Part shown: piece by piece, positions 28,318-61,672 of the stretch
How positions within the stretch are numbered: position 1 is the stretch's first letter
Layout: every line of letters starts with the position of its first letter
Assembly (NCBI RefSeq): GCF_014356525.2
Contig: NC_052504.1
Location: 100,341,940 to 100,405,939, forward strand
Direction: 5' to 3'
DNA length: 64,000 nucleotides
Source of the DNA: Nilaparvata lugens
Taxonomy: Eukaryota; Arthropoda; Insecta; Hemiptera; Delphacidae
Program-made: the position numbers and the translations under genes
Notes under the pieces: model-generated
Told to the model about the DNA's origin: nothing
Seen by the model: only the letters and a program-made list of their open reading frames with translations
Database searches by the model: none

Positions 28318-28984
28318 TCTATATATATATAAAAGCGAAATGGCACTCACTCACTGACTGACTGACTGACTCACTCACTCACTCGCAGAACTAAAAATCT
28401 ACCGCACCAAAAACGTTCAAATTTGGTAGGTATGTTCAGTTGGCCCTTTAGAGGCGCACTAAGAAATCTTTTGGCAATATTTTAACTCTAAGGGTGGTTT
28501 TTAAGGGTTTGAAGTTCGTCTTTTAGCATGTATATTCTTCTTATTCCAATCTCCTAATTATAATTGAAAAATGTCCGTATCTTGATATAAAACCATAATC
28601 TAGAGAGAGTACCTCTTCGAAACAGTTGTTAACTGGTAACTGAATTAATAATTTTGTCAGGTTGGCATTAAGTTGTGTTGACTTTGTTAGGTTGGCACCA
28701 AGTTGAAGATTGAGATGCATTTATCGCGGAAGAATTGATTGGGCACTGCTACTTCAATCAGAGCTATTTCTGGGAATATTATATCACCAGCCGTCAGGCT
28801 CGCTTCGCTCGCCATATCCGTTTAGCCAGACGTTTAGGCTGGACCTCCGACTGGATCGTCCTAACATATGATAAAAATGCTCAAATGAAAAATTCGAAGC
28901 GAGCCTGCTGATCCCATTCTTGGACGACCCAGTCGGGGGTCCAGGCAAAACGGATATGGCGAGCGAAGCGAGCCTGACGGCTAG
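28318..28984 (+). mobile_element. Non-autonomous Helitron, complete (667 bp)
   Basis: The 5' end is TCTATATATATATAAAAGCG followed by (CTCA/CTGA)n, a typical animal Helitron start. The 3' end is a hairpin at 28,958-28,974 followed 6 bp later by CTAG. The element sits between A (28,317) and T (28,985), the AT target expected for Helitrons, with no target duplication. An inverted copy of the terminal hairpin with its flank (gccgtcaggctcgcttcg; 28,790-28,825) lies inside. No Rep/helicase ORF is present. Replication would depend on an autonomous partner. Confidence 0.9.
28958..28974 (+). promoter_or_regulatory. Helitron 3' hairpin with tandem G.A mismatches and GAA loop
   Basis: The 17-nt hairpin folds as GGC/GCC outer stem, GA/GA tandem mismatch, GC/GC inner stem and GAA loop. 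Helitron 3' hairpins mark the end of rolling-circle transfer. The inner seven nucleotides, GCGAAGC, are a DNA mini-hairpin known for very high stability. A mirrored copy is at 28,797-28,813. Confidence 0.7.
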
Positions 28985-29403
28985 TCAGTTTATAAAGTCA
29001 GATTGATACCTCCATGAGAACCAAAATTGGAACCATAAACGCTTGCAGACTTGATTTATCAGGCTTCTAATTATTAATGATGATGATCATGTTGGGTCAT
29101 TTTTATGTGTTTTACACTCTAGAATTCGTGCTTCAGATCTATGATCATGTTTGGTTCAACCCAGTATAACACAAACAATTCTATTCTGAAAAGTATTGTC
29201 ATTATACGGTAAAAGCACTAAGAAGAAAATGAGAATCAGCGGTTAATGTAACATTAGAGGCTGTAATTGGGTCCTTTCTGTGCGTTTAGTGATGTAGCCA
29301 TGGGGAGGGAAGGGGGGAGTGGACTTGTAAGCACTTAATTAAGTGCTGTACAACGATCATGCCAGAGAGAGAGAGACAGAGAGAGAGAGAGAGTGACAGA
29401 GTT
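28985..29403. other. Host flank ending in a GA tract
   Basis: No gene seen. A (GA)n run at about 29,363-29,400 continues after the LTR element at 37,747, so the retrotransposon landed in a GA repeat. Confidence 0.5.
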
Positions 29404-31394
29404 TGTCACGTTATTCTTTATATTTAAATAACGATTAGCCTCCTGCTTGGCATCAGTCGGTAAAGCATGAGATTTGATATAATTAGGGCGTGGTTTTCTA
29501 ATAGTATTCAGTCTTAAAAAATCTTGATAGGCCTAGATATGGGCTTCTCCAATAACTCTTGTAATTCAATAAATAATAAATATATATATATAAATGATAC
29601 TTATACTATAGTGTTGAGGAATAAAAAATAAATTGCACACCATGAAAAGTTATACATATATTACATAAATAATGCAAAGATCAGTCGAGGCAAAAAATAT
29701 ATATATAGAGCGATAAAAATATAATATAAAAATAGAACAATATTTGAAATCAATAAAAATATCACAGGCTAAACTTTATATTCTAGATTTGTGGCACGAA
29801 TCATTACCATGTGCCTTTATCTTGAAATCATATGCATTCCTTTGCATGTAGCTGTGACATGTACTTGCTAATACTTGTCGGCTTGGATAATTCAATCAAA
29901 AATATGTGCTCTAAGATCAGCTTGATAAATTAGCCACTAATAATCCAAATATATCTATATATTAAAATCTCTAGTATTTAGTAGATTTATTTGTATCGAA
30001 TATATATTTTTATCTCAGGGTGCAAGATTCGGCACCTGACGGAATAGGTAGAGCCATTCATCTAGTGAATTAGAACTATGATAAATTATCGCAAATTGTA
30101 TTGCAAAAAATTAAATATTGTATGCATACGTTTGATAGCCTAGATTTCGTACTTCTTTGATTAAATAGAAATTTCTAAAATATTGATCTATATATTTTTC
30201 TTTCAATTAAATACCTTTAATACTAATTTTTACTTGCGCAAGTATTACTCTTATTAATTTCTTAATTTATAATAACCCTTTCGGCGAGCTAGCTTTGATC
30301 ATCAGATTATTTCGAAGCACTAGGGCGCCCATCACTAATTCAAATTTAATCACTCACGTGTCGAAAATCTTCTTGTAAGCCGCCGATGTCGATCCAACTC
30401 CATGTGGTCCGGGAATATGGTAGCCGGAATCGTCTCCTCCAAGGGGTTATAAATTTAATTAAAAATGAGAATGACTTCTGCTTCACAATAGCATCACGAA
30501 GTCTTTTAAGAAATTTAATAATTTACTTTAACTTTAAATTTACAAAATTATTAACAAGGTACTTCGCTCTAAAATATTTGGGGTCCTCTTATGGTGGCAT
30601 CTGGTTGGCGAGTGCTGGTTCTTCCTTCTCAAGTTTTACAGATCCTCTTTCCGACTTTCAAATTAGCATAAAATTTAAATATCCCAATCCTCCGCCATTA
30701 AATTCAAATAGATCTTACAAAAAATGCCAAAATATTGCTTAGATTATATGATTAATAATTTCTTTGCATTCGAGCCATATTGATAACATAGATTACACAA
30801 ATTTTTACACAAAATCTAGTACATTTATATAAATATATATAAATATTTTTGAATTGGCCTACAGTTGCCGCCTATTAACTGCCGTTTTACTATTGGTGCA
30901 TGCAAATTTTATTAGGTATTCATGCGCCTGGTAACTCTTATTTCCTGAATACATTAAATTATTTTTATTTGGTTTTTTATTTATGCTCTTTGCATGCTAG
31001 TTAATATTCTATACATTAATATTAATTCCATGCTACCTAATAATTAGCCACGTGGACGGGTGTTTTTTCACATTGCACACCATCCGAATGCAATAAAGCT
31101 CTGCCAAGGGGTTTTGGTCAGATTCTACGTTCTTCGGTTTGATCGATCTCTAGGTCACCGATCCGTGAATACATCTATATAACCTCAATCTTCAAATATT
31201 TTATAAATAATCTATTTATGAGTAGTAAACTTCCTTCAAATCCTTTTTAAGTTCTTGTACCATTTAGCCAGAACAAGCTGATGCTATCTAATCTTGGTTA
31301 TTATCTGCTTGGCGATATTAGCCAATTACTTTATTTTTAGACCTATTACTATTTCTGTTAGGGCTTTTCATCTACCCAGATTTAATATGTTACA
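29404..31394 (-). repeat. 3' LTR (left copy)
   Basis: Begins TGTCACGTTATTC and ends ATATGTTACA on the plus strand. In element orientation it starts TGTAACATAT. It aligns throughout with 35,757-37,742, with only scattered substitutions and small indels. At the inner side, next to 31,395, the minus strand reads CCCAGGGGCGCG, the position of the polypurine tract. The tract is weak, with only short purine runs. Confidence 0.92.
29438..29498 (+). other. tRNA-Lys-like segment in the LTR
   Basis: CAGTCGGTAAAGCATGAGAT and, 16 bp on, AGGGCGTGGTTTTC align with insect tRNA-Lys(CUU): D-arm CAGTCGGTAGAGCATGAGAC, then variable/T-arm AGGGTCGTGGGTTCGAGC. The preceding GCC...GGCATCAG approximates the acceptor/D-stem start with a short insertion. 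The anticodon loop and B box are degraded, so it is not a working tRNA. Plus strand, i.e. antisense to gag. Confidence 0.6.
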
Positions 31395-32498
31395 CGCGCC
31401 CCTGGGTTTGAATTCAAAATATTTGAGAATCACAATGTTTTTAATGAAAACCCACCCTTCAATACATTGATATACACTATACTTTATTTATAAATTATAC
31501 TCTCCTACTTCTATCACAGTTCGCAGACATATTTGCTGCATCTCCTTTATACCTTTATCAAATACAATAACAAATTCTCCTCCTCAACACACATAAAATA
31601 TCATAAATATAAACTTCTAAACGTATTCCTCCTGACACCACTTAAAACATAGTAATTTTTAAATTCGCCGCTTGCAGGGCCGCCAACTTAACTACACACA
31701 TTTCATAATTCTCACAAATGATTCCTTTTAAACAATAATTTCGATTCATAAACTTCTGGGCTTATATCTTATAGTATTTCTTAGGTCTTAATATAAATAA
31801 TTTTCTATACATCAGGTACAATACTTTCTTTTGCTAATGGCTCTTTGGTTTTGGTAACTGGTATTCACTTTAAGTCTTTTCAGGTAACAAACGTGGCATA
31901 ATTAAAAGTAATAAATATAAAAACATATAAATAAATATATCGACATTAATAAATATAATAAATAACAATAATAAATAACTCTTTGGGTACAGTACTTCTT
32001 TTTATAAACATATGTTCAACAGACATTACATTCGTTTGATTTGGGTGGCTTTGGCAAGCTGGTCACTGGTTCTACAGAATTTGCTGTCGAGTTTCATAAC
32101 TATTAACCTAACTGCTCAATTTTTTCTCTTAAAAAGGTAATTAACAAATTTTAATTTTATTATCCCCGCTTGTGTCCTTTTTTATCTGATGTATATAATT
32201 TAATTACATATTTAAAAATTGTTCTTTTCCTTATTGCAGGCTTCTAACGGTTGGAAGGAAATTAAACATTGGATTGTTGCCACGAGGTCCTATACCAATA
32301 TTAAATTTATTAAGGAAGGTTAGTAATCGGTTTGATAATAATGTTTTCATTGATTTCTTATCATATTTATTTCAAATTCTGACGATATTTCATGTAGAAT
32401 TGTTGTGATTTTTCCCGTATCTTTGGGCTTTCTTCTTGTAGCTATACTGTAGGCTGGTTGGGTTATCTGCTATCCATTTGTTGATTGTTGAGGCTGTC
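31395..32498 (-). other. Interior downstream of gag, non-coding
   Basis: About 1.1 kb between the gag stop and the 3' LTR where pol would normally begin. AT-rich, stops in every frame, no RT or integrase motif seen. It may carry RNA signals, but nothing specific is visible. Confidence 0.6.
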
Positions 32499-35273
32499 CT
32501 ATCGATAATTTATCTTTATGAATTTAAAGCCCTTGTATCTGGTGTATCTTTTAAAACAATTCCTTGATCTGGTTCTGTTTTCTTCTTTATTATTTCTATT
32601 TATTCCGTTGAGTCTCGATATTTTCACTTTAGTGGCATTGTTTATAATTCTAGTTACACCAATAAACGACTTTATAATATAAAGCTTCCAATCATCTTCA
32701 TCCGATACTTTCCACTTAAATTCATTATTAGGCTTCATCATCATAATAAACAATTCAATAATATAACACTTCCAATCAACACTAATAAATTCTTTCAACA
32801 ATAACATGGTCTTAATTATAGCATCACTTTTCAATATTATCACAGCCATTATAACAAACATTAAACACCATATCAAAACATTTATCAACTTCCTAACAAT
32901 ATAATCACTCAACATATAGCCAGGTACTTCCATTTTATTAGTATAATTCCTTATTTCTCTCACTCTTCTTAGACACTTTCCATTCTTCATTAGCTCCCAC
33001 AAGTAATCCAATTTATTGTCCGCGCATGAATCGATAGTAGTCCTTCTAATAACTTCGGTTCTATCCCATTTATTTGATCCGTTTTTATCCCGTTTCCTTA
33101 GCCCATTCTTCCGGTCACATCGCTGATTGGCCCTCTTGAAGCGTATGTGCCGCGGATGCATGACGTTGGTCCCTTCCTGTCCTCCTCGGTGTCGGTCCGG
33201 TATCCTCCTCGGGCGTTTAAATCGTGCATGCGGCCTCCATCGGCGCGCGCGGTTCCTCCGTTTCTTCCGCCTCCGGGCCTTGCGATGCATGCTCCTTCGG
33301 TCATGTAGTCCGTTCTCCTCGTCCTGATGCCGGTCGGGTGTCCTCGGGCGCTTCCTTCTCCGGGCCTTGCGGTGGTCGCTCCTCTTATCCGGTAGTCCGT
33401 CCTCTTGGTCCTCTATTCTGGGTTCATTGGGGTGCCTTGGTGGGGTCGAATGATGCGCGGGTGCGGTGGCGGACTCTTGATGCGCGGGTGTGACGTGCAG
33501 ACACATGGTGGCGGTCTCTGGATATGCGGGCTGCTCTTCCTGCGGTGATGGATCGTCGGCGGGGAATATAAGGCTCAAGAGGGGTTGATGTTTTCGGGCT
33601 GTTTTAATTACATGTTGAGCGGCGGTTTTTGGTGGTGATTTATCTGGTATTGGCTTTTGTTCTTCTAATAATATTTCCGGTAAATCATTTCTAAAGGTGG
33701 TGTATGATGTTGAAATATCTGGATTTTCTTTGTTTGTTTCATTGGAGCTTGTAGGTGTTATATCAGGGGTATCATATAGTCCTGGTTTATTAGCTGTAGC
33801 TTTCTGTGTATCTGGTGGCGGGTTGTTGGGTGTTGGGTTCTGTGTTTTTTGGTGATTTGATCTGGACGCATGCTCTAATGTGTAGTTTGTACTTATTTGA
33901 TGAGGTGGCGGTTTGTAATTTTTGTCGTAATTATTCTGAGTGTTATCATTATTTGTGTTAAATCGATCACGGCCATAATAATACTTTCTTTCATAGGTTT
34001 GCTGTGGATAATGGTTTGTTTGACGATTCTGAAAACTTCTATTATTCCAGCTGTTATTTTGATTATGATTATAGCGGCGTTTAAATTGAGGGGTAGATCG
34101 TGAGCAATCATATGGTACTGATTCATAATTTTGGCTGTTATACTGATTAAATTTTGAGTTATGTTGATTTTGTGCGTATCTCTGGTCTGAACGGTGGTTT
34201 GACATTGCCATCACAGACTGTATGCCATATAGATGATTTATCAGCTGCTTGCAATCAGTAATGGGTTGTGTGGCGAGTGCCATTCTAACTTGATACGGTA
34301 GCTTCTTTAAAATAATACTAGCTAATGCCGATTCATTAATGGGCTCGCTCAATTGAGAATTTTTAAACTGTAGGGCAGTGATGAAAGTGGTACATGCACC
34401 GTCTAAGTTAGGGTTGAAATCGCATGATATAATGTCCGCTAGCACGTCCAACTGTTTACTTCTGCTCCAATACTGTTCCAGGAAGACAGCTACAAACTCA
34501 TCCAATGATGTAAATTCATGGACTCTACTCCGAAAGAACATCAGGGGTTCGCCAATCAATAAACTAGTCAAACGAAGACGCCAAAAATTCCAAGAGGTGG
34601 GTGTTAATGATTGAACTAGTTTTATCTGATCTATAAATTCTTTAGGTTGGAGATAGCGGTCTGTATTGTCAAAACGGCCTAATTCATTGAAACTGTGTAG
34701 TGAATCAAACGTTGCTATGGGAATAGGCTCTATATTCTCGTGCGGAAATTGATGTATTTGATTTTCAAGTTGTACTATGTTTTGATTTATATCAGAATTT
34801 GGGTGAGCTATTTCATGAATTTGCGAAGTGTTTTGTGCTGGTAGGTTATCTATTCTTTCGTTTAACTCACAAGTGACAGTATCTATTTTTGCTGTTAAAT
34901 CGGTTGTAATTAGTTCTTGATTTTCAGCGGTAGATGCTGATATTGTGTCCGCAGTTTGCTTACCCGTTCTTACCGATGTATCCTTCAATGATTCCCGCAT
35001 TTCCTTCATTTCCGCCTTCAAGTCCTTCATTACTCTGGTCATTGTTTTTTCTAAACTATTAGAAAATGACTTGATCATCCCCTCTACTATAACCCTTCTT
35101 ATTGCTTCTTGGGAGACATTTAACGGTTTATTACTGTTCACAGGATTCTTGGCGGTGATTGAAGAGATCTGGGCGTTGGACTCCATCGCGCCCCCCTCAG
35201 CGTCGATCTCCGCTACTATCGCCGTCTGCAGTGTGTCTGCTACCTTACTTTGCGTGGACGAAAAGAGACTCAT
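32499..35273 (-). CDS. gag: Gag-like polyprotein of the LTR element (924 aa)
   Basis: An intact frame of 924 codons. The ATG at 35,273 is the first after an in-frame TAA two codons upstream and lies ~480 bp inside the 5' LTR. Residues ~70-105 look like a coiled coil. Residues ~205-375 match the Ty3/Gypsy capsid (retrotrans_gag) pattern, with SWNFWRLRLTSLL then SLDEFVAVFLEQYW. Residues ~380-500 are Asn/Gln/Tyr/Arg-rich, and no CCHC zinc knuckle is visible. About 500-620 is Pro-rich. About 630-740 is extremely Arg/Lys-rich, built from repeated DxRSxHRKARRRK units on GC-rich DNA. Residues ~794-816 form a strong hydrophobic segment, and the end is basic. Presumed to package the element RNA. The basic and membrane-like tail is unusual. 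Confidence 0.85.
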   Translation of the reverse strand: MSLFSSTQSKVADTLQTAIVAEIDAEGGAMESNAQISSITAKNPVNSNKPLNVSQEAIRRVIVEGMIKSFSNSLEKTMTRVMKDLKAEMKEMRESLKDTSVRTGKQTADTISASTAENQELITTDLTAKIDTVTCELNERIDNLPAQNTSQIHEIAHPNSDINQNIVQLENQIHQFPHENIEPIPIATFDSLHSFNELGRFDNTDRYLQPKEFIDQIKLVQSLTPTSWNFWRLRLTSLLIGEPLMFFRSRVHEFTSLDEFVAVFLEQYWSRSKQLDVLADIISCDFNPNLDGACTTFITALQFKNSQLSEPINESALASIILKKLPYQVRMALATQPITDCKQLINHLYGIQSVMAMSNHRSDQRYAQNQHNSKFNQYNSQNYESVPYDCSRSTPQFKRRYNHNQNNSWNNRSFQNRQTNHYPQQTYERKYYYGRDRFNTNNDNTQNNYDKNYKPPPHQISTNYTLEHASRSNHQKTQNPTPNNPPPDTQKATANKPGLYDTPDITPTSSNETNKENPDISTSYTTFRNDLPEILLEEQKPIPDKSPPKTAAQHVIKTARKHQPLLSLIFPADDPSPQEEQPAYPETATMCLHVTPAHQESATAPAHHSTPPRHPNEPRIEDQEDGLPDKRSDHRKARRRKRPRTPDRHQDEENGLHDRRSMHRKARRRKKRRNRARRWRPHARFKRPRRIPDRHRGGQEGTNVMHPRHIRFKRANQRCDRKNGLRKRDKNGSNKWDRTEVIRRTTIDSCADNKLDYLWELMKNGKCLRRVREIRNYTNKMEVPGYMLSDYIVRKLINVLIWCLMFVIMAVIILKSDAIIKTMLLLKEFISVDWKCYIIELFIMMMKPNNEFKWKVSDEDDWKLYIIKSFIGVTRIINNATKVKISRLNGINRNNKEENRTRSRNCFKRYTRYKGFKFIKINYR
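33100..33550 (-). repeat. GC-rich coding minisatellite within gag
   Basis: A ~450-bp block of clearly higher GC in an otherwise very AT-rich element. Units of roughly 85-100 bp recur on the plus strand with CTCCGGGCCTTGCG(A/G)TG, then GTAGTCCGT(T/C)CTC and CCTC.TCCTG. On the coding strand they give Arg/His/Asp-rich repeats. Because of the composition, several other frames are also open here. Confidence 0.65.
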
Positions 35274-35692
35274 ATTTTAAAAATGGATTAAGTGTCAAGT
35301 GTTTGTTAAAAAAGTGAAAGTTTTGGCCAACAAGGCATTAATAAGGACACAAATGAGGATAGGCCTATGGACATTACAAGCCAGGTAACCTATTTATTAC
35401 TTAAGCTCTTATAATATAATAATACTATTCATTGATTTCTGACTAGCAGTTTAGGCCCATAAAATATAATAGCTCTCTCTATAAAATATATTTTTTACAG
35501 TACTAATAATATAAAATTTTCTTTAAAACATATAATTTCTCTTTATTTAAAGCTATTGATTCCCCAAAAAGTAATACAAATTTCCTTCGCCAGTTTTCCT
35601 CACAACTCGTATAAGTTATCTATAATTTTCAATATGGTTATTGACTTAATTTCAAATAATTATTCAATGAGCTTGGCTCTCATCATCAGTCC

Positions 35693-35760
35693 CACGTTGG
35701 TACGACATGTCTTTGTGTCGTATCCGTGGCCTATCACGTTGGGCGACATGTCTTTCTGTC
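35693..35760 (-). promoter_or_regulatory. Primer-binding region with two tRNA-Lys 3'-end copies
   Basis: Next to the 5' LTR the plus strand reads CACGTTGGGCGACATGTCTT at 35,735-35,754. About 42 bp further in lies a related copy, CCCACGTTGGTACGACATGT at 35,691-35,710. tRNA-Lys(CUU) ends CCCCACGTTGGGCGCCA, so each copy matches it with a few changes, and the minus strand would pair with the primer. Both copies are followed by TCTTT(C/G)TGTC, and TGTC is also the LTR edge. Neither is perfect. Confidence 0.65.
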
Positions 35761-37742
35761 ACGTTATTCTTTATATTAAATAACGATTAGCCTCCTGCTT
35801 GGCATCAGTCGGTAAAGCATGAGATTTAATATAATTAGGGCGTGGTTTTCTAATAGTATTCAGTCTTAAAAAATCTTGATAGGCCTAGATATGGGCTTCT
35901 CCAATAACTCTTGTAATTCAATAAATAATAAATATATATAAATGATACTTATACTATAGAGATGAGGAATAAAAAATAAATTGCACACCATGAAAATTTC
36001 ACACATATATTACACAAATAATGCAAAGATCAATCGAGGCAAAAAATATATATATAGAGCGATAAAAATATAATATAAAAATAGAACAATATTTGAAATC
36101 AATAAAAATATCACAGGCTAAACTTTATATTCTAGATTTGTGGCACGAATCATTACCATGTGCCTTTATCTTGAAATCATATGCATTCCTTTGCATGTAG
36201 CTGTGACATGTACTTGCTAATACTTGTCGGCTTGGATAATTCAATCAAAAATATGTGCTCTAAGATCAGCTTGATAAATTAGCCACTAATAATCCAAATA
36301 TATCTATATATTAAAATCTCTAGTATTTAGTAGATTTATTTGTATCGAATATATATTTTTATCTCAGGGTGCAAGATTCGGCACCTGACGGAATAGGTAG
36401 AGCCATTCATCTAGTGAATTAGAACTATGATAAATTATCGCAAATTGTATTGCAAAAAATTAAATATTGTATGCATACGTTTGATAGCCTAGATTTCGTA
36501 CTTCTTTGATTAAATAGAAATTTCTAAAATATTGATCTATATATTTTTCTTTCAATTAAATACCTTTAATACTAATTTTTACTTGCGCAAGTATTACTCT
36601 TATTAATTTCTTAATTTATAATAACCCTTTCGGCGAGCTAGCTTTGATCATCAGATTATTCGAAGCACTAGGGCGCCCATCACTAATTCAAATTTAATCA
36701 CTCACGTGTCGAAAATCTTCTTGTAAGCCGCCGATGTCGATCCAACTCCATGTGGTCCGGGAATATGGTAGCCGGAATCGTCTCCTCCAGGGGTTTATAA
36801 ATTTAATTAAAATGAAAATGACTTCTGCTTCACAATAGCATCACGAAGTCTTTTAAGAAATTTAATAATTTACTTTAACTTTAAATTTACAAAATTATTA
36901 ATAAGGTACTTCGCTCTAAAATATTTGGGGTCCTCTTATGGTGGCATCTGGCTGGCGAGTGCTGGTTCTTCCTTTTCAAGTTTTACAGATCCTCTTTCCG
37001 ACTTTCAAATTAGCATAAAATTTAAATATCCCAATCCTCCGCCATTAAATTCAAATAGATCTTACAAAAAATGCCAAAATATTGCTTAGATTATATGATT
37101 AATAATTTCTTTGCATTCGAGCCATATTGATAACATAGATTACACAAATTTTTACACAAAATCTAGTACATTTATATAAATATATATAAATATTTTTGAA
37201 TTGGCCTACAGTTGCCGCCTATTAACTGCCGTTTTACTATTGGTGCATGCAAATTTTATTAGGTATTCATGCGCCTGGTAACTCTTATTTCCTGAATACA
37301 TTAAATTATTTTTATTTGGTTTTTTATTTATGCTCTTTGCATGCTAGTTAATATTCTATATATTAATATTAATTCCATGCTACCTAATAATTAGCCACGT
37401 GGACGGTGTTTTTTCACATTGCACACCATCCGAATGCAATAAAGCTCTGCCAGGGGTTTTGGTCAGATTCTACGTTCTTCGGTTTGATCGATCTCTAGGT
37501 CACCGATCCGTGAATACATCTATATAACCTCAATCTTCAAATATTTTATAAATAATCTATTTATGAGTAGTAAACTTCCTTCAAATCCTTTTTAAGTTCT
37601 TGTACCATTTAGCCAGAACAAGCTGATGCTATCTAATCTTGGTTATTATCTGCTTGGCGATATTAGCCAATTACTTTATTTTTAGACCTATTACTATTTC
37701 TGTTAGGGCTTTTCATCTACCCAGATTTAAATATGTTACAAG
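35757..37742 (-). repeat. 5' LTR (right copy)
   Basis: Direct repeat of 29,404-31,394 with the same TG...CA ends, abutting the AGTT duplication at 37,743. It should carry the promoter for gag transcription leftwards, but I could not single out a convincing core promoter in this very AT-rich sequence. Confidence 0.92.
35790..35850 (+). other. tRNA-Lys-like segment in the LTR (second copy)
   Basis: Same segment as 29,438-29,498 with one visible change (gatttaatat for gatttgatat). It lies ~30 bp inside the LTR edge next to the primer-binding region, on the strand that would represent the tRNA itself. Confidence 0.6.
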
Positions 37743-38103
37743 TTGGAGAGAATGAGCATGAGGTAGAGAGTGTATACGAAGGGGTAGATGGACCAATGTG
37801 TAACAAGAGAGAGAGAGAGTGACTAAGTAGGGTGAGAGAGAAAGAGATGACAGAGTGAGAGATAGAGAACGAGCAATAAATATAGAGTGTAAGCGCGAAG
37901 GGGCAGGTGGAGAGGGAGTCGGCAAGAGAGAGTGAGAGAGGAAGAGAGCAAGAGAGAAGAGAGAAAGAGGAAGAGAACAAGAGAGAGTGTGTGAGTGTGA
38001 GAGAAATGGTGACAGAGAGAGACAGGGGTGAGATAGAGTGAGAGAGTGTGTGAGTGAGGAGAGAGGCGTGAGAGAGTAATGGCGATAAAGAGTGGGACAA
38101 GAG
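37743..38103. repeat. GA-rich tract flanking the LTR element
   Basis: GAGAGAGTG-type repeats. The minus-strand Ser/Leu/His frames (127 and 103 codons) are products of composition. Continuation of the GA tract at 29,363-29,400. Confidence 0.8.
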
Positions 38104-39127: not shown

Positions 39128-39315
39128 AGAAATAACTAGTGACCCCCTGGGTGAGAGAACTCACTCAAGAACTGTTGCATTGTAATCTTTATAACACGAA
39201 ACTTTCAATAATACAGAGTTGGTGAGAATTATGGAAACAGCTGAATATTTCTTCTAAAGGAATAAGTTGACTTGACAGTGGGTTTTATTGGTGATCCTAT
39301 TTGAAATGAGATAGT
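39128..39315 (+). mobile_element. Family L repeat, continuous
   Basis: ACTAGTGACCCCCTGGGTGA, TTGTAATCTTTATAACACGA, ACAGAGTTGG and GATCCTATTTGAAATGAG match the split copy at 14.4 kb, and family C follows. Confidence 0.65.
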
Positions 39316-39914
39316 ATATTTCGCACCTATTGCAGAAAATGAGATTTTTCCGGCTCGAAATCGGTTTTCAAGTCCGAGGCCGTAGGCCGAGGACTAGAAA
39401 AGATTGAGAGCCGGAAAAAACATTTTTGCCCGTGGTGCGAGCGCTATTTTTCGCCTCACAAAAATAAACTTTATATAATATATGAGAATAGTTGTTCACT
39501 AAGCACTACCGAAAGCAGAAGTGGAAGGTGATAGCTCTTGCAAATCTGAGGTAATCTGAATATCAGGAAATTTTCCAAGTATTTTTATTTCCTATTCTGA
39601 TTTGTCTAAATAACCTGAAAGATGATGTTCAATTATGTGGGAAGTTGCGTTTATGCTTTTTTATTCTTTCAAATGACAATACGATGATATTATTATAAAT
39701 GTTTTTGATCATTGAATAATGAACACAAATAATGAAAAGCTTTTTGATCACCTTTCTTAGTCCCATGTTAGCGGCTGGAAAGGGTACTCTTTCCGGCCTG
39801 GCCGGAAAGAAACCTGTGCTGACGTCAGACGAGCGTCGTCTGCAAACAATATCTTCCAGATCTATGTAGGGACTGGAAAACAGCTGCTTTCTGTGCAGTG
39901 TGGCGAAGAATATT
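39316..39914 (+). mobile_element. Family C element (~600 bp)
   Basis: Starts ATATTTCGCACC. Next come a nested palindrome with TTTTTCCGGCTC/GAGCCGGAAAAA arms around a G.A-mismatch hairpin (39,372-39,394), a ~300-bp AT-rich middle, CTCTTTCCGG palindrome sequence, TGACGTCA and the CAGACGA/TCGTCTG hairpin. It ends near GTGTGGCGAA. Closely similar to 47,308-47,911. Non-coding. Confidence 0.8.
39372..39394 (+). promoter_or_regulatory. Hairpin: GTCC stem, GA/GA, GGCC stem, GTA loop
   Basis: Outer pair GTCC/GGAC, tandem GA mismatch, inner pair GGCC/GGCC, loop GTA. Same fold at 47,361-47,383, where one inner pair is a T.G wobble, and inverted at 11,342-11,364. Function unknown. Confidence 0.65.
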
Positions 39915-43019: not shown

Positions 43020-43306
43020 TTGTCAGCTGATTGATTATGAATAATTCTATAGTCTTATTGATCCAATCTTCAAAGTACGTGATATTATAAAGTGATACCA
43101 GAGTATGGAGGAATTCCTTTTCTTTTCATATTATCCTTAGAATGCCAAATTTCAGAAACCTTGTTTATACATCGACGCGCAGTTTAAATAGGAATATTCC
43201 TGCCAAATCCCATCGATTTCTATCAACGCGTTTGGCCGTAATCGCGTAACATATAGACATACAAAAGCAAATCCGAGTTAAAACATAGACCTCACTACGT
43301 TCGGTC
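43020..43306 (-). mobile_element. Family Q element copy
   Basis: On the minus strand it begins with the hairpin at 43,288-43,306, then TTTAAACTGCGCGTCGATGT, ACAAGGTTTCTGAAATTTGG, AAGGATAATATGAAAAG and ACTATAGAATTATTCATAAT to CAGCTGAC. The same order is found at 60,230-60,545. Non-coding. Confidence 0.7.
43288..43306 (-). promoter_or_regulatory. Family Q terminal hairpin (GTA loop)
   Basis: Folds as GACC/GGTC, GA/GA, AC/GT, GTA loop. The other copy (60,230-60,248) has GC/GT and a GAA loop, so the two differ only in ways that keep pairing and the GNA loop. Confidence 0.7.
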
Positions 43307-43588
43307 AATAATAAACAAAAATGTATTACATTTTTTTTGGTAATGTAACCTATGACATCACAGAAGAAATAATTCAATTTTGTGAAAATATATCCGTATT
43401 TGATTCATTTTGGGTTAGTTTTTCCCATAGAGAAAAGAGAACTTGAGAAGATAATGTCATGGTTTGTAGAAGTCATTCAAAGTTTTGTATCAAATTATGA
43501 TGTTGTGTATCAAGTTAAGATGATACTGTATCATTACATGTTGATACTGGATCATATTGTGTTGAAACTGTATCATTCATGGTGATAC
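43307..43588. other. Unassigned, with short degenerate repeats
   Basis: Words such as TATCA(A/T)(A/G)TT(A/G) and GATACTG(T/G)ATCAT recur around 43,490-43,585. No gene. Confidence 0.3.
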
Positions 43589-44922: not shown

Positions 44923-44972
<50 letters not shown>

Positions 44973-47209: not shown

Positions 47210-48302
47210 ACTTATTTCCATCGTTTTCACTCTTTGCAAAAGTTTATGAATTCCAATCGAAACGGAAGTGCTACAAAATCCTGAAAGATTATAAGATAAA
47301 AAGTATATTTCGCACCTAGAGCAGAAAATGAGATTTTACCGCCTCGAAATCGGTTTCCAAGTCCGAGGTCGTAGGCCGAGGACTAGAAAAGATTGAGAGC
47401 CGGAAAAACATTTTTGCCCATGGTGCGAATGCTATTTTTCGCCACACACAAAAAAAAAACAATATATATATGCGAATAGTTGTTTACTAAGCACTTCCGA
47501 AAGCAGAAGTGGAAGGTGATAGCTCTAGCAAATTTGAGGTACTCTGAATATCAGGAAATTGTCCAAGTATTTTTATTTTTTATTCTGATTTGTCTAGATA
47601 ACCTAAAAGATGATGTTCAATTATGTGGGAGGTTGATTTTATACTCTTTATTCTTTCAAATGACAATAAGATGATATTATCATAAATGTTTTGATTATTG
47701 AATAATGAACACAAATAATGAAAAGTTTTTTGATCAGCTGTTTTTCTATCACCTTCTTAGTTCCATGTTAGCAGCTGGAAAAGGTACTCTTTCCGGCCTA
47801 GGCCGGAAAGAAACCTGTTCTGACGTCAGACGAGAGTCGTCTGCAAACAATGTCTTTCAGATCTACGTAGGGACTGGAAAACAGCTGCTTTCTGTACAGT
47901 GCGGCGAAAAATATATAAATGGAGCCATTTTTAACTGAACGACCAATATAATTTATCCGGAAAAATGAACGGTCAAGTCTTGAAAGTTATTAAATTTCCC
48001 AATATTGTAAACAAAAAATGAAAACCGTTTTAAAAACAGTTTTTACGTGAAAAAAAAACCCCAATCCATCATCACTCGATTAATTCCAATCGAAAGGGAT
48101 GTATGCCTAATAGTGCTACGAAATCCTAGAAAAGGCTATTATAAGAAAAAAATATATAAATGGAACCATTTTCCAGTATTACGAGATCTATATCATTCCC
48201 GTTTTTCCGGTATGCAATCCACAAGTTGACATGTTTTGATGGGAACAAACGAACAAACGAACTCACGAACAAACACAACCCTACTCTCTCTTATTATATA
48301 GA
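47210..48302 (-). mobile_element. Helitron-like repeat, 5' end on the minus strand
   Basis: From 48,302 leftward the minus strand reads TCTATATAATAAGAGAGAGT followed by GTTTGTTCG repeats, a typical Helitron 5' end between A and T. Inside, the block CCAATCGAAA...GTGCTAC(A/G)AAATCCT...ATTATAAGA(T/A)AAAAA...TATATAAATGGA(G/A)CCATTTT occurs twice (about 47,257-47,930 and 48,085-48,175). The left one is interrupted by family C. A 3' CTRR end was not located. Confidence 0.6.
47308..47911 (+). mobile_element. Family C element with TATA flanks
   Basis: Inserted in the Helitron-like block. The empty version at about 48,150-48,165 lets the ends be read as TTTCGCACC and GGCGAAAAA, flanked by TATA (47,304-47,307 and 47,912-47,915). 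It contains the G.A-mismatch hairpin (47,361-47,383), a perfect 22-bp palindrome (arms CTTTCCGGCCT) at about 47,789-47,810, TGACGTCA at about 47,820 and the CAGACGA/TCGTCTG hairpin. Confidence 0.8.
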
Positions 48303-49860: not shown

Positions 49861-50084
49861 TATCCTGAAAGAGAACGATGTGAGTTGACCTCGTTGTTTA
49901 ATGAACTTCTGTTCGGAAAATACATGTGTTTAAAATACAAGCTGGTTAATCAAATCGTTCGAAAGTTATTGTAGAAAATACGGGCTGACAAACAAACAGA
50001 CGAACATCGATTCTGGATGTAGTCAAAAGTGAAAACTCGCTGACGCTCGTTCAATGATAGATAATAAAGAGAAGCATTTCAATT
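49861..50084. other. Unassigned, with G.A-mismatch hairpin at 50,034-50,051
   Basis: The segment reads AAACAAACAGACGAACATCG then TTCTGGATGTAGTCAAAAGT and a hairpin. On the minus strand it folds as AAC/GTT, GA/GA, GC/GC with a GTCA loop. It looks like the end of an unidentified repeat. Confidence 0.45.
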
Positions 50085-53260: not shown

Positions 53261-53431
53261 CATGAAAAAGGGTCATCTAACCATCTATGGTTACCCAATA
53301 AAGTTGATAAGATTAGATTTCATCCTCACTTCACTATTAAAGATATCTTTGGGTCTATAATTATAATATTTTTTTCTTATTTATTGATATAAAAACCCCC
53401 TTTACAAGAGGAACAATATTCCAGTGTTTTA

Positions 53432-54991: not shown

Positions 54992-55069
54992 TCAATTATA
55001 TGTTATTTGTCAAGGGAATGTACTTTTCAATGATCAAATAATAGATTTTCATAATCAAAATAGAATATT

Positions 55070-55840
55070 TCAAATTCAAATTCATTTATTTGCCATAAAA
55101 TAATAGAGATTGATAAAATAAATATTTCAACTTACAAAATGGCACTACCGGCAAAGAAAACTTGTGCGCCGGCAGTGATTTCGAACAACTAGGTACGGTC
55201 ATAGAGAAACAATAGCGTAAGTAGATATCCCATGGTATAGGGCGTTTATGTCGCAACTTTTACTGTTATCTCAAGCTGATTACTGTTGATTATTGTCGAA
55301 TTTTACTGTTTTGTTGGGGTGAGAGTGTATGAACGGCACAATATGAGAGACTACCAGTGTCACACAGCTTCAAGGGAAAGAATTACAGGAACTATCGGCT
55401 TGAACAGTAAAAGTTGCGACATAAACGCCCTATATCATAAGATATCTACTTACGCTATTGTTTCTCTATGGTACGGTACAGCAAACATGTCAATAGAAAG
55501 AAAAAGAGCTTATTCAAACCACTAGAATAACTAAAATTATGGAAACCAGGTTACATCTCAAAACTTACAAACGATAAGACCAATTCTAGGAAACCATGAC
55601 AATTTTTTTTTAAATTTATAACACATGAATGAAACACTACATAATGGATATAGATAATTTTAAATAAACATTCATCCTAATCCAATCCAGTAAAAGATTC
55701 ATTATGGATTTTTTAATTCTATTAATAATGAATTCAGTTGGGACTTTATTCATAAACAAGTAACACTGATATTCAAACTGACGTCTACATACACTGGTAA
55801 AGTCAATATCAAATTGTAATGGATTGGAGGGAAGCAAATT
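55070..55840 (-). mobile_element. Probable LINE 3' end carrying an H MITE
   Basis: The minus strand ends GCAAATAAATGAATTTGAAT, resembling a LINE tail. A 66-codon frame at 55,637-55,837 includes LFMNKVPTEFIINRIKKSI, loosely like the LYNKLP... tail of LINE ORF2 proteins. The MITE at 55,200-55,470 lies in the presumed 3' UTR. The LINE assignment is tentative. Confidence 0.45.
55200..55470. mobile_element. Family H foldback MITE with 7-bp duplication
   Basis: CATAGAGAAACAATAGCGTA to its inverse, flanked by GTACGGT at 55,193-55,199 and 55,471-55,477. Very similar to 6,186-6,460. Confidence 0.88.
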
Positions 55841-55924
55841 ATAAATTATTCCTTAAGTTGTCACTATTCTTATTAATGAATAATATTTCTTGGTTAATAA
55901 TTGTACTCCAAACTACTAAAAGCG

Positions 55925-56130
55925 ATCCAACTTATACAGTTACTGGATAGAAAATTCAAGAATGACGCATCATCACGTCTCAACTACTCAACTGAATAAA
56001 CTTGAAATTTTGCACATAGATTCTTAATTAACCGAGGTTGGTTATAGGCATATTTTCAAGATTCCATTATGTCGAGCTTTATGATTGTCAAGTTACCATC
56101 AATTGGAACTTTTCGGAGCACGAGTTACTG
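55925..56130 (+). mobile_element. Family I (Helitron-related) copy
   Basis: AATGACGCATCATCACGTCT, TTAACCGAGGTTGGTTATAG and TTTCGGAGCACGAGTTAC. Confidence 0.65.
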
Positions 56131-56339
56131 GCCAGTTATCAATCAATTATTAATTTATATTTATCGTTTACAATCAACGTAAGGACAAAGAAACAGACAA
56201 CAGTCCAAAACTTCTTTTTATCTCAATTTCATAAAAGGAATTGTCCAAATGAAGGTTATATGCGACTTTCCAATTCTTCACTAATTTCCACATTGAAAAA
56301 ATCGGTCAAGTCATTTTTGAGAAAATCGTGATAGAAATT

Positions 56340-56912
56340 TAACAAAATTCATTTTTCTCGGGAATATTATGGAGCTCCTGCAATTCTCCCAGGAATGAGA
56401 CTCATGTCAGTTGATAGAGCTTATAAAAAGCTATATAGGTTATAAATTTGAAGAAAATCGTTAGAGCCGTTTTTTGAGAAAACCGTGAAAAATATGGTTT
56501 TTTAGCCATTATCCGCCATTTTAGATTGAATTCCATTGTATTTCTCATTGCCGGATCCTCATGGTATAAGGTCCTTAAGTTTAAAATTTCAAGTCAATCG
56601 GTTAATTAGGAATGGAGTTTTCGTGTTCACAGACACACACACATACACACACACACATATACACACACACACATACACACACACAGACCAACACCCAAAA
56701 ATCATGTTTTTGGTCTCAGGGGACCTTGAAACGTACAGAAAACATGAAATTAGGGTACCTTAGTTTTTTTTGGAAAGCAATACTTCCCTTACCTATGGTA
56801 ATAGGGCAAGGAAAGTAATGAAACGTATGGAAAACATGAAATTAGGGTACCTTGAATTTTTTTGGAATGCAATACTTCCCTTACCTATGGTAATAGGGCA
56901 AGGAAAGTAACA
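56340..56912 (+). mobile_element. Family D 3' part with tandemly doubled end
   Basis: GGAGCTCCTGCAATTCTCCC, GTTAGAGCCGTTTTTTGAG, (CA)n-rich 56,630-56,690 and CAATACTTCCCTTACCTATG. The last ~91 bp (ATGAAATTAGGGTACCTT to the AAGGAAAGTA hairpin) is repeated in tandem at about 56,730-56,818 and 56,821-56,910. Confidence 0.7.
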
Positions 56913-57734
56913 AAACACAAACACTTGAAACAATTAATTTTGAATTTAGAAAGATTAGGATCCGAATTGGTAACAAATTTCCTTCTACTTCGTACTCAAA
57001 ACTGTAAAATAAATATCGATTTGAAATATTTTGTTCCGGAAATTATCTATTTCTAATTGATGATGTGTTATGAATTCGGGAGAGAAATAGTACAAGGAGT
57101 ATCCTTAGTTTTTCTCTCCCAATCAGTGTTTCTTTGTAAAAAATATAAATGAATAAAATAAATAAATAAATGAAATAAATAAATATCATAATATCCCACC
57201 AAAAACAGTATCTGAGAACAACATCAATCCTTTCCTCCCAACCAATTCTGACAGTAGAAAGTAAATCAGATGAGTCACAATCTCACAAACCTAATCAACA
57301 CACAACATTTTTCGATAAATCACTTCCACACAAGTAACACGGCTGAGAGATGAACGAGACGACAACGATAGTGTCCCCCTCTAGCGGTTTCAGGGTTCAG
57401 GGGGTACAGGGGGGCATCCCATCAACTCCTCTGCCCCCATAAAGGGCACGCACGCTTGCATTGATTGGATTAAAGCGAGCGAAATCATGCAGGTCAGTGC
57501 GCTGAATATTCCATCATGAAACGTATCTATCGGCTTCACAGACCGCTACGCTTAGGGGGGCTCTTTACCTCCCTATTCGCCCCTTTCGACCCCTTATTTA
57601 CCCCCATTTACCCCCTCCATGAACCCCGTTTTCCACCCCCTGCACCACTGGAAACCATCTGCCAATGACAGCAGATACTCGAGTCGGAAAGAGTTACGGC
57701 GACAAAATTCACTGATCCTACATTGTGATATAGG
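56913..57734. other. Low-copy sequence with a C-rich stretch, no gene seen
   Basis: Apart from AAATAA(A)TGAAATAAATAA runs near 57,140-57,185, this looks unique. 57,370-57,660 is GC-rich and dominated by runs of C. No frame over 60 codons with any motif. Confidence 0.4.
57580..57640 (-). promoter_or_regulatory. Potential G-quadruplex (minus strand)
   Basis: Plus-strand C runs at 57,580-57,615 are CCCC, CCCC, CCCCC and CCCCC with spacers TTTCGA, TTATTTA and ATTTA. The minus strand therefore has four G4-5 runs with 5-7-nt loops, plus two more C runs to 57,640. This fits the usual G-quadruplex rule. Function unknown. Confidence 0.6.
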
Positions 57735-58960
57735 TTATTGAGTCGGTGGATATGATAGGACGGCGTGGTTGGTGATTCTCTTTTTTCACCGCTCTCTATA
57801 ATGGTGGATAGCTGTGATTTTATTTATTCATTTATTTGATTATTCATAATTACACCACTCATAGAAAAGTAGCACAGGCTCACTTACGCCCAAAACGGTT
57901 TCAATTCTAATTTATACAACAGTCCAAATGTATCTAGTTCATGTGTCACTTCAAAATTTTTCAGTTACACACTCAATTTACAATTTGAAACAAACACAAA
58001 CAAAAGAAGTCTTCAAATTTAAGAAATACCTCTGAATTGAATTATATCGATCACAAATTTCCACTGATTATCAAGGAATATCTGATATTTCATAAAAAGA
58101 CTAAGAAATTGTCAAAAACTACTAATTTATTTTATAGTTAGAAAGACTGATTTTGGTTGTTACACCATTGTCAATCTCTGATAAACTGATTTACCTGATA
58201 TGATATTGATATTCTTGCCTCTTGTTGATCATGATCTCAAATCTATGAAAAAACATTGTAGTAGGCCTACCCTTTTTTGAGAAGTTTTCAATATAAATTT
58301 ACAGATTAGAAACACAACTCAAAATCTGACTTTGAAATTCATTTTAAGAAGTGAAGATGATGTGAAAGCTTGAATGAAAAAGACCAATAAATTGTCATAA
58401 ACCACAGATTTATTGATACTTAGAAAGACCGGTTTCGGTTATTACACCATTGTCAATCTCTGATAAACTAAAACTAAATACAAGAGCAGCAGAATTCATA
58501 CTAGTAGGCGAGTCATGCCATTGGTCAAGGGCATGAACGCCTGCCATTGGCCCAGCTAGACAGTCTTCTCCCACTCAACGGAGTCACAAAATGGCGGCTC
58601 AAGCAACAGACTCGGCATGATAACAAAATTTACTCTCAGTACAAAATAAGAGCCAAGAAAACAAGTATGAAAGATAATTTTATTGTTCTTATTTTGTACC
58701 AAAAGTAAATTCTGTGGGAGGAGACTGTTTAGCTGGGCCAATGGCAGGCGTTCATGCCCTTGACCAATAGCAGTACTCGCCTACTAGTATAAATTCTTCT
58801 GCTCTTGTATTTAGTTTTAATTTATCAGAGATTGACAATGGTGTAATAACCGAAACCGGTCTTTCTAAGTATCAATAAATATGTGGTTTTTGACAATTTC
58901 TCAGCCTTTTTTATTCAATATGAACTTACCAAAATATCAACTTCTCAACTACACAAAAAA
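57735..58960 (-). mobile_element. Compound B block, inverted copy of the 23.2-24.0 kb block
   Basis: In order: AGTCGGTGGATATGATAGGA (matches 23,960 inverted), a B end (58,095-58,205), the spacer with CATCATCTTC inverted (58,205-58,375), and a B foldback (58,381-58,918) with CCAAT boxes and TATAAATTC in both arms. It is followed by the outer tail ATCAACTTCTCAACTACAC. Confidence 0.75.
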
Positions 58961-58965
58961 TCTGG

Positions 58966-59825
58966 TGTGGCGCACTCACACAACTTTCCTCGCCCTTATG
59001 AAAATTTATCACCTGACGCTAGTGTTCCCGCGCATCTCAAGTCTACTATTCAAAGATTTGAGCCAGCTGGTGACAGGGCAATAACGCTGGAGACACACGA
59101 GGTGAGCTATCTCTTCATAGTGAATCATTTAATAGAATCAACAGTTGCCAACAGTTTGCAATTGTCACAGTTTTCACATTTTCTCGAATTTCGAGCTTAT
59201 TTTTAATTTTAGGTGAGAATGTCACTGAACATTAATTGTAGAGATTCTCATGCTCAATCTATTCCACTCCAAATTTGTTGTTTGAATTGTATCTGAAGCC
59301 TGATAATTAAGAATCTAAAATCAAACTTTGCATAGATTGGGCGGAGCTCCTGAAAATTTACAGATATGGGACTTGTGGTAGTTGATAGAGCTTTTCGATG
59401 ACTATTTCAGGTATAACTTTAAGCAGAAACGTTGGAGCTTTTTTCGAGAAAATCGCGAAAAACCCCGTTTTTGAAACCATTTTTGCCATTCTAGCCGCCA
59501 TCTTGAATCGTATTTGATCGAAATTGTTCGCATCGGATCCTTATATTGTAAGGACCTTACGATCTAAATTTCAAGTCATTCCGTTAATTGGGAGATGAGA
59601 TATCGTGTACACAGACGCACATAATTATACTCATACACACACACACAAACACACACACAGAGACACACACACACACACACACATACATATAGACCAATAC
59701 CCAAAAAATACTTTTTTGGACTCAGGGGACCTTGAAACGTATAGGAATTTAGAAATTGGGGTACCTTAATTTTTTTCGGAAAGCAGTACTTCCCTTACCT
59801 ATGATAATAGGGCAAGGAAAGTAAA
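58966..59825 (+). mobile_element. Family D element, complete
   Basis: TCTGGTGTGGCGCACTCACA to the AAGGAAAGTA hairpin, with (CA)n at about 59,630-59,690. Two short overlapping frames at its start (67 and 107 codons) are not supported as genes. Confidence 0.8.
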
Positions 59826-59844
59826 AATGATGTGAAACATCGGT

Positions 59845-59980
59845 TAAGTTGATATCACATAAACAAGCCTGTATCAGCTACCATCTATACATCTATAGAA
59901 GGCATTGACAAGACAGAGGTTCGGCAACGTTGTTTCCCTATCTTTCTTCACTGTCATTATAACGTGGACCTCACTTTAGC
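59845..59980 (-). mobile_element. Family A partial copy
   Basis: CCTGTATCAGCTACCATCTA, CGGCAACGTTGTTTCC and the end cattataacgtggacctcacttta. Confidence 0.7.
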
Positions 59981-60224
59981 TGTATGGAGTGCGGAAAGTG
60001 CTGACGCATGCAATTTACATGAAACGCTGAGACAATGTGCTCTTACCAGCTAATTGGCAATTCATGTCAAGGAATCCTGCATTCCTATTGGCCCACAATT
60101 CCAATGCATGCTGATGTAATGATGACTAACATCTCCGTCTATCATCAAGACTGCTCACACACCGATTAGTCAAGACAAGACTAGTCACGTTTAGTCACAA
60201 TACTTCACATACTTGCTTATGAAG

Positions 60225-60545
60225 TAATTGACCGAGCGAAGTGAGGTCTAAGATTCAAGTCGACGGTTTGGCATTTCTCTTAATGTTTAAAAGGTTGAAT
60301 GTTCAAATGTTTATTATGTTTTCATGTAGCGCATTTACAGCAAAACGCGGTAATAGATTTTCATGACATTCGACAGGTATGTTCCTTTTTAAATTTCGCG
60401 TCGACGTACATACAAGGTTTTTGGGAATTCCGCATTTCAAGGATAATATAAAAGGAAGAAGGAGCCTCCTTCATACGCCAATATTACCATAAAAATCAGA
60501 CTATAGAATTATTCATCATAAATCAGCTGTCTAGTGGACTATAAT
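60225..60545 (+). mobile_element. Family Q element copy
   Basis: Hairpin at 60,230-60,248, then TTTAAATTTCGCGTCGACGT, ACAAGGTTTTTGGGAATTCC, AAGGATAATATAAAAGG, CTATAGAATTATTCATCATA and CAGCTGTC. Same order as 43,306 to 43,020 (minus). Confidence 0.7.
60230..60248 (+). promoter_or_regulatory. Family Q terminal hairpin (GAA loop)
   Basis: GACC/GGTC, GA/GA, GC/GT (one G.T wobble), GAA loop. See 43,288-43,306 for the compensating copy. Confidence 0.7.
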
Positions 60546-60690
60546 ACAACTCGTTCAAAAACATCGAACATCTTGAAAATGTATCTTTCCATCAACGTTG
60601 TAGACAGTTTTGACTATAATACTACCCGTTCCAAAACATAAAACATCTTGAAAATTGTATGTTTCCATCAACGTTGTAGACAGTTGCAGC
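60535..60690 (+). repeat. ~77-bp tandem pair
   Basis: GACTATAATAC(A/T)AC(T/C)CGTTC(A/C)AAA...CATCTTGAAAA...TTTCCATCAACGTTGTAGAC occurs twice in a row. Confidence 0.7.
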
Positions 60691-60789
60691 CAGACCTGAT
60701 AACAGCGCTCACACTCACATTCCGGGACGATGGGACAGAAGGCTCTATGTTTATTTAGGATTTTTTCTAGACGTTTTTAATTGATAAAT

Positions 60790-60949
60790 TATTCGTCATA
60801 TCAAGTACAGTTCAATTATTATTTTCTTAGTCTATATTATGTGAATTCATCTATAATTAAGCTGTATTGTAAGCTATTGTAGTGTAAGCTATACACTCAT
60901 AGTATAAGCCAGTATATATTGTAATCTACATGAATAGAGTACTCAATCT
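60790..60949 (+). mobile_element. Family E 3' fragment
   Basis: CAAGTACAGTTCAATTATTA, TTGTAAGCTATTGTA and ATATATTGTAATCTACATGA then AGTACTCAATC, followed by a CT tract (60,950-60,985). AATAGAG replaces AATAAAG. Confidence 0.7.
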
Positions 60950-60985
60950 CTCTCTATCACACTCTCTCTCTCTCTCTCTCTCCAA

Positions 60986-61374
60986 TTATAAACCAAATAT
61001 CACACTGACATTGTTGTGTTCTGCTATTTATCGAATTCTCCATTACTCCAATAATATCGAATTATCTTCTAATAATATCCAATTATGATTTCAATTTTCG
61101 AGCTTCATTATAATTAAAAAAAAGACTGTCCGACTAATTAGTTTGGGTTGAAACGCGAGTGAAACAATTCCAATCACTTCCAAGAGCGGCTTGTTGTTGG
61201 CATCGTATTATCGCTGATAATCGAATATTGTAATCTGACTATAATGAGATCTCTTCACATTGTCAGTATTTCTAATAATTTGAATCAACAATCCAATGTC
61301 CAATCTTTTCAACACTGTACTGGGGTTTTAATGTGCCTGCAAATGACCAATATTTATTATCACAGGGAAATGAT
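60986..61374. other. AT-rich, nothing recognised
   Basis: No gene or shared repeat. Confidence 0.3.
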
Positions 61375-61570
61375 AGCAGAAAAAGATATCTCATGGTATA
61401 GTGCGTTTTTTTTTTAAGTTCAATGTTAACTCAAGCCGATAGTCGTAATAGTTATTTTTGGTGAAGCTTTGTGCCACTGGTAGTCTCTTATACTGTGCCG
61501 TTCTAAAGCTGCGTTCACACTAAAGCTATTAACAAAATGTGAATAAATAATAGTTATTTGTATATCTAGA

Positions 61571-61672
61571 GTGAAAAGTACCACTTTTTCTCCCTGAGGG
61601 AAAAGTTTGAAGCCCGAGGCGAAGCCGAGGGCAACAATTTTCCTGAGGGAGAAAAAGTATTTTTCACTCGTG
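61571..61672. repeat. Nested hairpin with G.A-mismatch core
   Basis: Arms AGTGAAAAGTAC.ACTTTTTCTC / GAGAAAAAGTA.TTTTTCACT and CCCTGAGGGAAAA / TTTTCCTGAGGG surround a core at 61,612-61,632. The core folds GCCC/GGGC, GA/GA, GGC/GCC, GAA loop. Family C has the same layout with a different sequence. The 101-codon minus frame over it is not supported as a gene. Confidence 0.7.

Follow-up and report, generated by a model that had tools for sequence, protein, structure and literature searches.

Why should repeats with little sequence in common carry the same irregular hairpin? The question is raised by a 64,000-nucleotide stretch of the genome of the planthopper Nilaparvata lugens (assembly GCF_014356525.2, contig NC_052504.1, positions 100,341,940 to 100,405,939, forward strand), which as a whole we call the window. 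An initial annotation of its letters proposed that at least five unrelated repeat families share one hairpin there, in which an outer and an inner stem are separated by GA opposite GA and the loop is GAA, GTA or GTCA. Our main result is that fold, strand and distance agree between viral replication loci and one of these animal repeat ends. On balance, we lean towards reading the motif as a strand-specific signal that HUH rolling-circle enzymes recognise in single-stranded DNA and that marks the end of an element.

All the annotated hairpins were recovered where they had been placed, both by reading the letters and by a pairing-enforced scan of both strands for an outer stem of at least 3 Watson-Crick base pairs (bp), GA/GA, an inner stem of 2-4 bp and a G..A loop of 3-4 nucleotides (nt). 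The scan found seven hairpins in the window (11341-, 28797-, 28958+, 39371+, 43288-, 50034- and 61612+), compared with a mean of 0.11 and a maximum of 1 in 100 dinucleotide shuffles. Tolerating one G.T pair raised the matches to 10 (0.4 in shuffles, maximum 3) by adding 47360+, 60230+ and the A+T-rich 4414-. The enrichment over dinucleotide shuffles anticipated by the annotation also extends beyond the window, since a regular sample of the same chromosome (20 x 10 kb, 200 kb in all) held five matches against 0.5 in 20 shuffles (maximum 2), namely an H element contributing two hairpins, a single K copy and a further family, N, which is new and represented twice. Hairpins with any 2x2 mismatch show no clear overall excess in the window (294 vs 275 in shuffles), but GA/GA, pooled with TC/TC as its reverse complement, forms the most frequent class among them (13 vs 2.5; 20 shuffles). 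In the named window families a C-G pair always closes the loop (C-GAA-G, C-GTA-G or C-GTCA-G) and C always precedes GA on the 5' side; every window family combines a C-GNA-G or C-GNNA-G loop with a pyrimidine-GA-purine step, just as the annotation had described context and loops. The window also contains 29 perfect stems of at least 8 bp (10.9 in shuffles), and because none of them has a C-GNA-G loop, such a loop characterises these repeats and not all hairpins here.

Variant counts, pairing tests and copies retrieved by their flanks alone back the view that the fold itself is under selection. The 17 letters of the H hairpin occur in at least 120 stretches of viral contigs and at least 119 stretches of bacterial and archaeal genomes. 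In the viral contigs, the fully paired Watson-Crick version was found 10 times, which makes it at least 12 times rarer than the GA/GA version. AG/AG versions were found 30 times with a GAA loop and 15 times with an AAG loop, and a loop-TAA mutant did not occur there at all, although part of that rarity may be coding because the string holds stop codons. With the seed letters masked, we compared outer-stem pairing between frames with and without a paired inner stem. When a 2-bp inner stem was paired, the outer stem was fully paired in 42/129 viral, 30/86 genome and 3/6 window frames, whereas with an unpaired inner stem this was the case in 16/648, 9/490 and 2/44; the AG/AG-ANG control with a paired inner stem gave 2/65, 1/43 and 0/4, respectively. 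The next outer pair past the seed was formed in 60 of 109 viral GA/GA matches (30.4 expected, p 2e-9) and in 50 of 116 genome matches (35.9 expected, p 0.004). AG/AG controls showed no pairing past the seed (2/13 and 8/21), and the few Watson-Crick copies also pair there (5/8, p 0.035).

A bacterial repeat provides a view of the fold in which structure played no part in the retrieval. In the genome of locus L200 (G001, a Bradyrhizobiaceae record), the flank pattern GGGGAGGGT..GGGTGGGG retrieved 48 copies with 40 distinct inserts, and the reversed pattern retrieved none. The inserts are hypervariable with widely differing stems, but always hairpin-like. By script, 18/40 hold GA/GA, 2/40 hold GA/AG, which in both cases becomes GA/GA when a different loop is chosen, and 20/40 lack a 2x2 mismatch; most of these 20 are fully paired, and 2 pair over 3 bp at the loop and hold other irregularities. 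Their loops are GNA in 16, GNNA in 12 and other in 12. In this repeat, GA/GA substitutes for base pairs, and an internal mismatch is hardly ever anything other than GA/GA. A second genome has C-GAA-G in 3/3 copies, one of them with a paired exchange of G-C to A-T. The copies in the L200 genome often stand in facing pairs. As for the annotation's expectation that the mismatch stays in place between copies, there is no free drift in the copies seen, but decayed copies do exist, such as the window N copy described below and one at L340:4411 (reverse-strand numbering) in which the G of the loop and outer pairs are gone. A flank-match search for variants in the loci examined gave 20 non-seed places, of which 6 were kept and several were off by one base or overlapped, and it is not used as a count.

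A link between the hairpin and an element end is seen in element H (28787-28984), a palindrome of 198 bp. Each of its two termini faces outwards and has the form of a Helitron 3' end, in which the hairpin is followed by 6 nt, CTRR and T. The right hairpin, GGC GA GC GAA GC GA GCC, lies at 28958-28974 (+) with CTAG at 28981-28984, and the left hairpin has the same 17 letters at 28797-28813 (-) with CTGG, in minus reading, at 28790-28787. The Helitron 3' end annotated at 28958 is thus indeed of Helitron type, but it does not stand alone, because its inverted copy at 28797 completes the palindrome. A second copy of H, in L337, has the same two-ended anatomy, and T follows CTRR at 4/4 of the H ends seen in the two copies. 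The CTAG|T terminus lies 10 nt beyond the hairpin, and the 3' CTRR of Helitron1, with its palindrome about 11 nt ahead, has a counterpart at both ends of H, as CTAG or CTGG. The 17-mer occurs 24,037 times exactly (11,976 + 12,061) in the 1,085,386,871-base assembly, in which its reversed control is absent. Two further observations concern H copies elsewhere. In L337, a fully paired hairpin with a C-GGA-G loop, GGGGGC GGA GCCCCC, lies inside one arm of the H copy (9422-9436, -), and at G000:C1 many H 17-mers, among the first 100 places listed, are spaced by about 84-85 bp along a single strand, as though a portion of the H end now formed a tandem array.

The same fold is found beside replication genes in viruses. 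A Rep profile, built from 8 of the 11 Reps that it then finds, matches 11 of the 120 seed viral loci and none of the 55 control loci, where Rep is a neighbour in 0/55. The GA strand of the hairpin is the Rep strand in 11/11 loci, and the hairpin stands 36-238 nt ahead of the Rep open frame in 10/11, while in L075 it lies inside a long frame. Pfam PF23343 was found in 9/11 (L089 and L090 were outside that scan), and in L028 there is an additional weak Rep, whose gene is followed by the hairpin on the same strand. We scored the letters of the phiX174 origin (J02482) against each locus and 500 shuffles of it: a phiX174-origin-like stretch follows directly 3' of the hairpin in 8/11 Rep loci (matched by at most 4/500 shuffles each), the score is not outstanding in L011 (18/500), L054 (45/500) and L089 (322/500), and an equally high score appears in just 1/121 other seed matches. 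The aligned cut position in the phiX-like loci would fall 7-10 nt past the hairpin, to be set beside the 10 nt of H. A search for relatives of the viral hairpin regions returned none in phage records and two weak places in plasmid records. In L090, a gene upstream codes for a protein of the Zot type, like those of filamentous viruses. Viral contigs L026, L042, L044, L046, L096 and others carry 'CCTATCCCCCC' 5' of the hairpin and represent another intergenic hairpin family.

How could one fold serve such different replicons? In DNA, the d(GCGAAGC) mini-hairpin and tandem G.A steps in a pyrimidine-GA-purine context form sheared G.A pairs and are specially stable. Since both irregular parts of our motif would be such pairs, the GA strand should fold well and its complement less so. 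The signal would consist of a short inner stem capped by C-GNA-G or C-GNNA-G, the tandem GA/GA step and an outer stem; in H, and by extension in the other families, it would lie just 5' of the cut, fold on the displaced strand and tell a HUH-type nuclease to cut and stop at the element end. The enzyme would read the fold and its irregular parts and not the stem letters, and because the fold is what is read, stems could drift and similar hairpins could arise independently in unrelated replicons. It is conceivable, and we put it forward as a tentative extension, that bacteria, Rep-bearing viruses and an animal genome each came independently to one physical fold, a GNA loop with tandem sheared GA, and that this fold, on a particular strand and whatever its sequence, marks the end and the stop 7-10 nt from a HUH cut. 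New non-autonomous families would then be easy to form and stems free to change, because enzymes read the irregular pairs. The rolling-circle role suggested in the annotation thus finds support in H and in the 11 same-strand viral Rep loci; terminal position and layout alone speak for it in C, K and N, and it is not supported for Q and U.

Several observations weigh against a signal for HUH enzymes. In this genome, C-GNA-G triloops on fully paired stems show no clear enrichment (8 vs 2-6 in five shuffles), and the effect of inner-stem pairing is weaker for 3-bp inner stems (5/15 viral, 1/12 genome). By DNA energy tables, the GA strand beats its complement by just 0.1-0.9 kcal/mol and the short hairpins are predicted to fold no better than shuffles; these tables lack a GNA bonus, and we dropped the stability argument from them as uninformative. 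Genome-wide, 297 copies of H have a letter other than T after CTAG (the count covered non-T letters, the T string being GCGAAGCGAGCCTGACGGCTAGT), H lacks a 5'-TC end, its opposite terminus being an inverted 3' end, and the layout of C, K and N may place the GA strand on the non-transferred strand. Rep_ORF2/G2P is the commonest family among the nearest genes of non-coding prokaryotic and viral matches, yet it accounts for 4/110 (111 candidates), and because the Reps are mutually 24-87% identical, they represent several lineages but not 11 independent events. Seed matches lie inside open frames in 61/169 viral and 85/167 genome cases (deduplicated, either strand). The 55 control viral loci (499 kb) hold no hairpin, where shuffles give 1.4, and it is also absent from the first 50 kb of both HF2 and N4, so the motif is patchy, a trait of some genomes only, and a fold common to all genomes is ruled out. 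Finally, the loop of Helraiser, a known system to which we return below, is given as ATT and not GNA in the part of the source available to us (PMC4778049).

The remaining window families show how far the architecture extends and how independent its carriers are. C2 runs from its start to its far terminus at 39308-39913 (+), with the hairpin AGTCC GA GGCC GTA GGCC GA GGACT at 39371-39395 (+), where it caps a foldback some 150 nt long. C3 (47297-47914, +) has its hairpin at 47360-47384 (+) with one G.T pair, and C1 (10790-11428, -), with a middle unlike that of C2 and C3, has letters identical to those of C2 at 11341-11365 (-). K1 (61545-62310, +) carries GCCC GA GGC GAA GCC GA GGGC at 61612-61632 (+) at the tip of a nested foldback, and the N hairpin reads CCC GA GCC GTA GGC GA GGG. 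In C, K and N, the element starts 72-75 nt left of the hairpin centre, and a nested foldback from the first ~75 nt, about 150 nt in length and tipped by the hairpin, places a palindrome near one terminus. The far terminus, roughly 600 bp (C), 770 bp (K) or 1,060 bp (N) away, is inverted relative to a repeat immediately within the foldback. Inverted repeats placed asymmetrically, one at a terminus and the other subterminal, were read in the C and K ends, and a self-match at 664-686/1561-1582 of the N1 extract is of the same kind. The flanks of five C/K/N copies show neither a clear target duplication nor a clear TT rule. In the window N copy (about 287-519, -), both arms remain around 4 nt that replace the hairpin near 455, which could be a hairpin-deletion event.

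Contrary to the annotation, these families are not all unrelated. The element starts of N and K have 84 nt in common at 72.6% with different stems, and C, which has no significant BLAST match to K or N, joins them by layout and by-eye alignment. Q and U stand apart, so the five or more families shrink to about four groups (H, C/K/N, Q and U); the matches nevertheless do not all trace to one ancestral repeat. Both Q repeats have the hairpin at their start: in Q1 (43103-43309, -) it is GACC GA AC GTA GT GA GGTC at 43288-43306 (-), and in Q2 (60227-60476, +) GACC GA GC GAA GT GA GGTC with one G.T at 60230-60248 (+). Five more Q copies retrieved by their right flank all kept the hairpin, four with identical letters and one with a GGA loop. 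The U hairpin, AAC GA GC GTCA GC GA GTT, lies at 50034-50051 (-), and no second copy was found in 264 kb examined of this genome. Elsewhere in the window, 300-nt direct repeats (29645-29944 and 35994-36293, 98% alike) flank a gag-like open frame of 925 amino acids (32499-35276, -). Together these look like a long terminal repeat retroelement. Neither a Pfam family nor protein relatives were found for the frame.

Could the hairpin act without any rolling-circle cutting? It might work in double-stranded DNA as a supercoiling-driven switch, extruded for regulation, replication or recombination as in the promoters of phage N4, whose hairpins have a 3-nt loop with sheared G.A, extrude at physiological supercoiling and form in cells, according to the part of the source available to us (PMC4496689). 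N4 indeed contains 7-bp C-GGA-G hairpins at 557(-) and 4546(-), and a switch would account for the many matches without Rep. Such a switch, however, predicts neither the strand and the 7-10 nt spacing at nick sites nor the end position in H, and we consider it unlikely.

Slightly less likely still is a role in transcripts, where the hairpin would affect stability, processing or small RNAs. RNA likewise forms stable tandem GA pairs, long foldback RNAs would be expected from K, C and N, and intergenic matches are more often sense to both neighbours than antisense to both (29 vs 19 viral, 25 vs 12 genome). On the other hand, the loops of the window families, and most of those in the loci, belong to the GNA triloops or to GNNA loops containing a pyrimidine, and follow the rule for DNA rather than the GNRA rule for RNA, and an Rfam search of the window gave no match. 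Matches are not concentrated between convergent genes (7/80 viral, 13/61 genome), which excludes a reading as terminators.

Least probable is that a few ancestral motifs were simply copied by transposons, with palindromes from copying errors and an unselected architecture: the 24,037 exact copies of H, the leader common to K and N, the patchy distribution and the fixed C-GA-R and C-GNA-G letters that make all families look alike would fit, but copying errors should give perfect stems, which are the rarer version in viral contigs, the stems of the flank-retrieved copies vary without loss of pairing around an unchanged GA/GA mismatch, and the same architecture with other sequences is in excess more than 500 bp from seeds (32 vs 2.5 viral, 18 vs 4.5 genome).

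To our knowledge, little is understood of how ends are defined in Helitron-like elements or of why sequence is so dissimilar between their terminal hairpins. Should the common part be a non-canonical DNA fold, ends could be found by structure, families could be grouped by it, and the stop step could be tested with oligonucleotides. Folding rules specific to DNA (GNA loops and tandem G.A) would then reach natural biology beyond phage N4. Those parts of the open-licence literature on GCGAAGC and Helitrons, or on sheared pairs and rolling-circle hairpins, that were available to us contain no report of such a hairpin.

Comparison with known systems places the motif among several relatives in form. 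The d(GCGAAGC) mini-hairpin shares the loop and the mismatch context, but it is model-oligonucleotide chemistry and not a genetic element. TnpAREP and the HUH enzymes of IS200/IS605 recognise bases of the mismatch or the loop, and do so on a single strand, and repetitive extragenic palindromes (REPs) likewise need a mismatch or loop base in a hairpin, some having GAA/GGA/GCA-type tips; as far as the excerpts seen go, they differ in an AA/GC mismatch and a GTAG guide beside the hairpin (PMC8266576, PMC2817692). No GTAG stands directly 5' of the window hairpins (GGATAT precedes H, for example) and no Y1 transposase is among the 25 commonest of the 74 neighbour families, which excludes membership of the REP or IS200/IS605 systems. 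The promoter hairpin of the N4 virion RNA polymerase (vRNAP) resembles ours in its C-GNA-G triloop with sheared G.A and differs in its fully paired stem and promoter role (PMC4496689, in part). A phiX174-type origin with a filamentous-virus Rep (G2P) matches the viral loci in having nick-site letters directly past the hairpin and Rep on the same strand, whereas phiX174 itself shows no such hairpin in 250 bp read by eye and is not an animal element. Helitron2/FoHeli and Helentron/HINE/DINE-1 elements are like C and K in their asymmetric inverted repeats and terminal stem-loop, and the 5' hairpins of FoHeli1 and FoHeli2 have C-GAA-G triloops; from what could be consulted of the sources, FoHeli stems are fully paired, unlike those of C and K, and the foldback of about 150 nt is particular to C/K/N (PMC5148889, PMC4067079). 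Helitron1 and Helraiser resemble H. The part of the source available to us mentions no GA/GA step for Helraiser, and H has two inverted 3' ends without a 5'-TC (PMC4778049). They agree in a palindrome about 10-11 nt upstream of a terminal CTRR, next to which the H ends seen have T, and the Helraiser 3' hairpin is a stop signal in which a swapped stem keeps ~90% of activity while a change of loop has the effect of deletion, so that, as in the window hairpins, the loop outweighs the stem letters (PMC4778049, from the same part).

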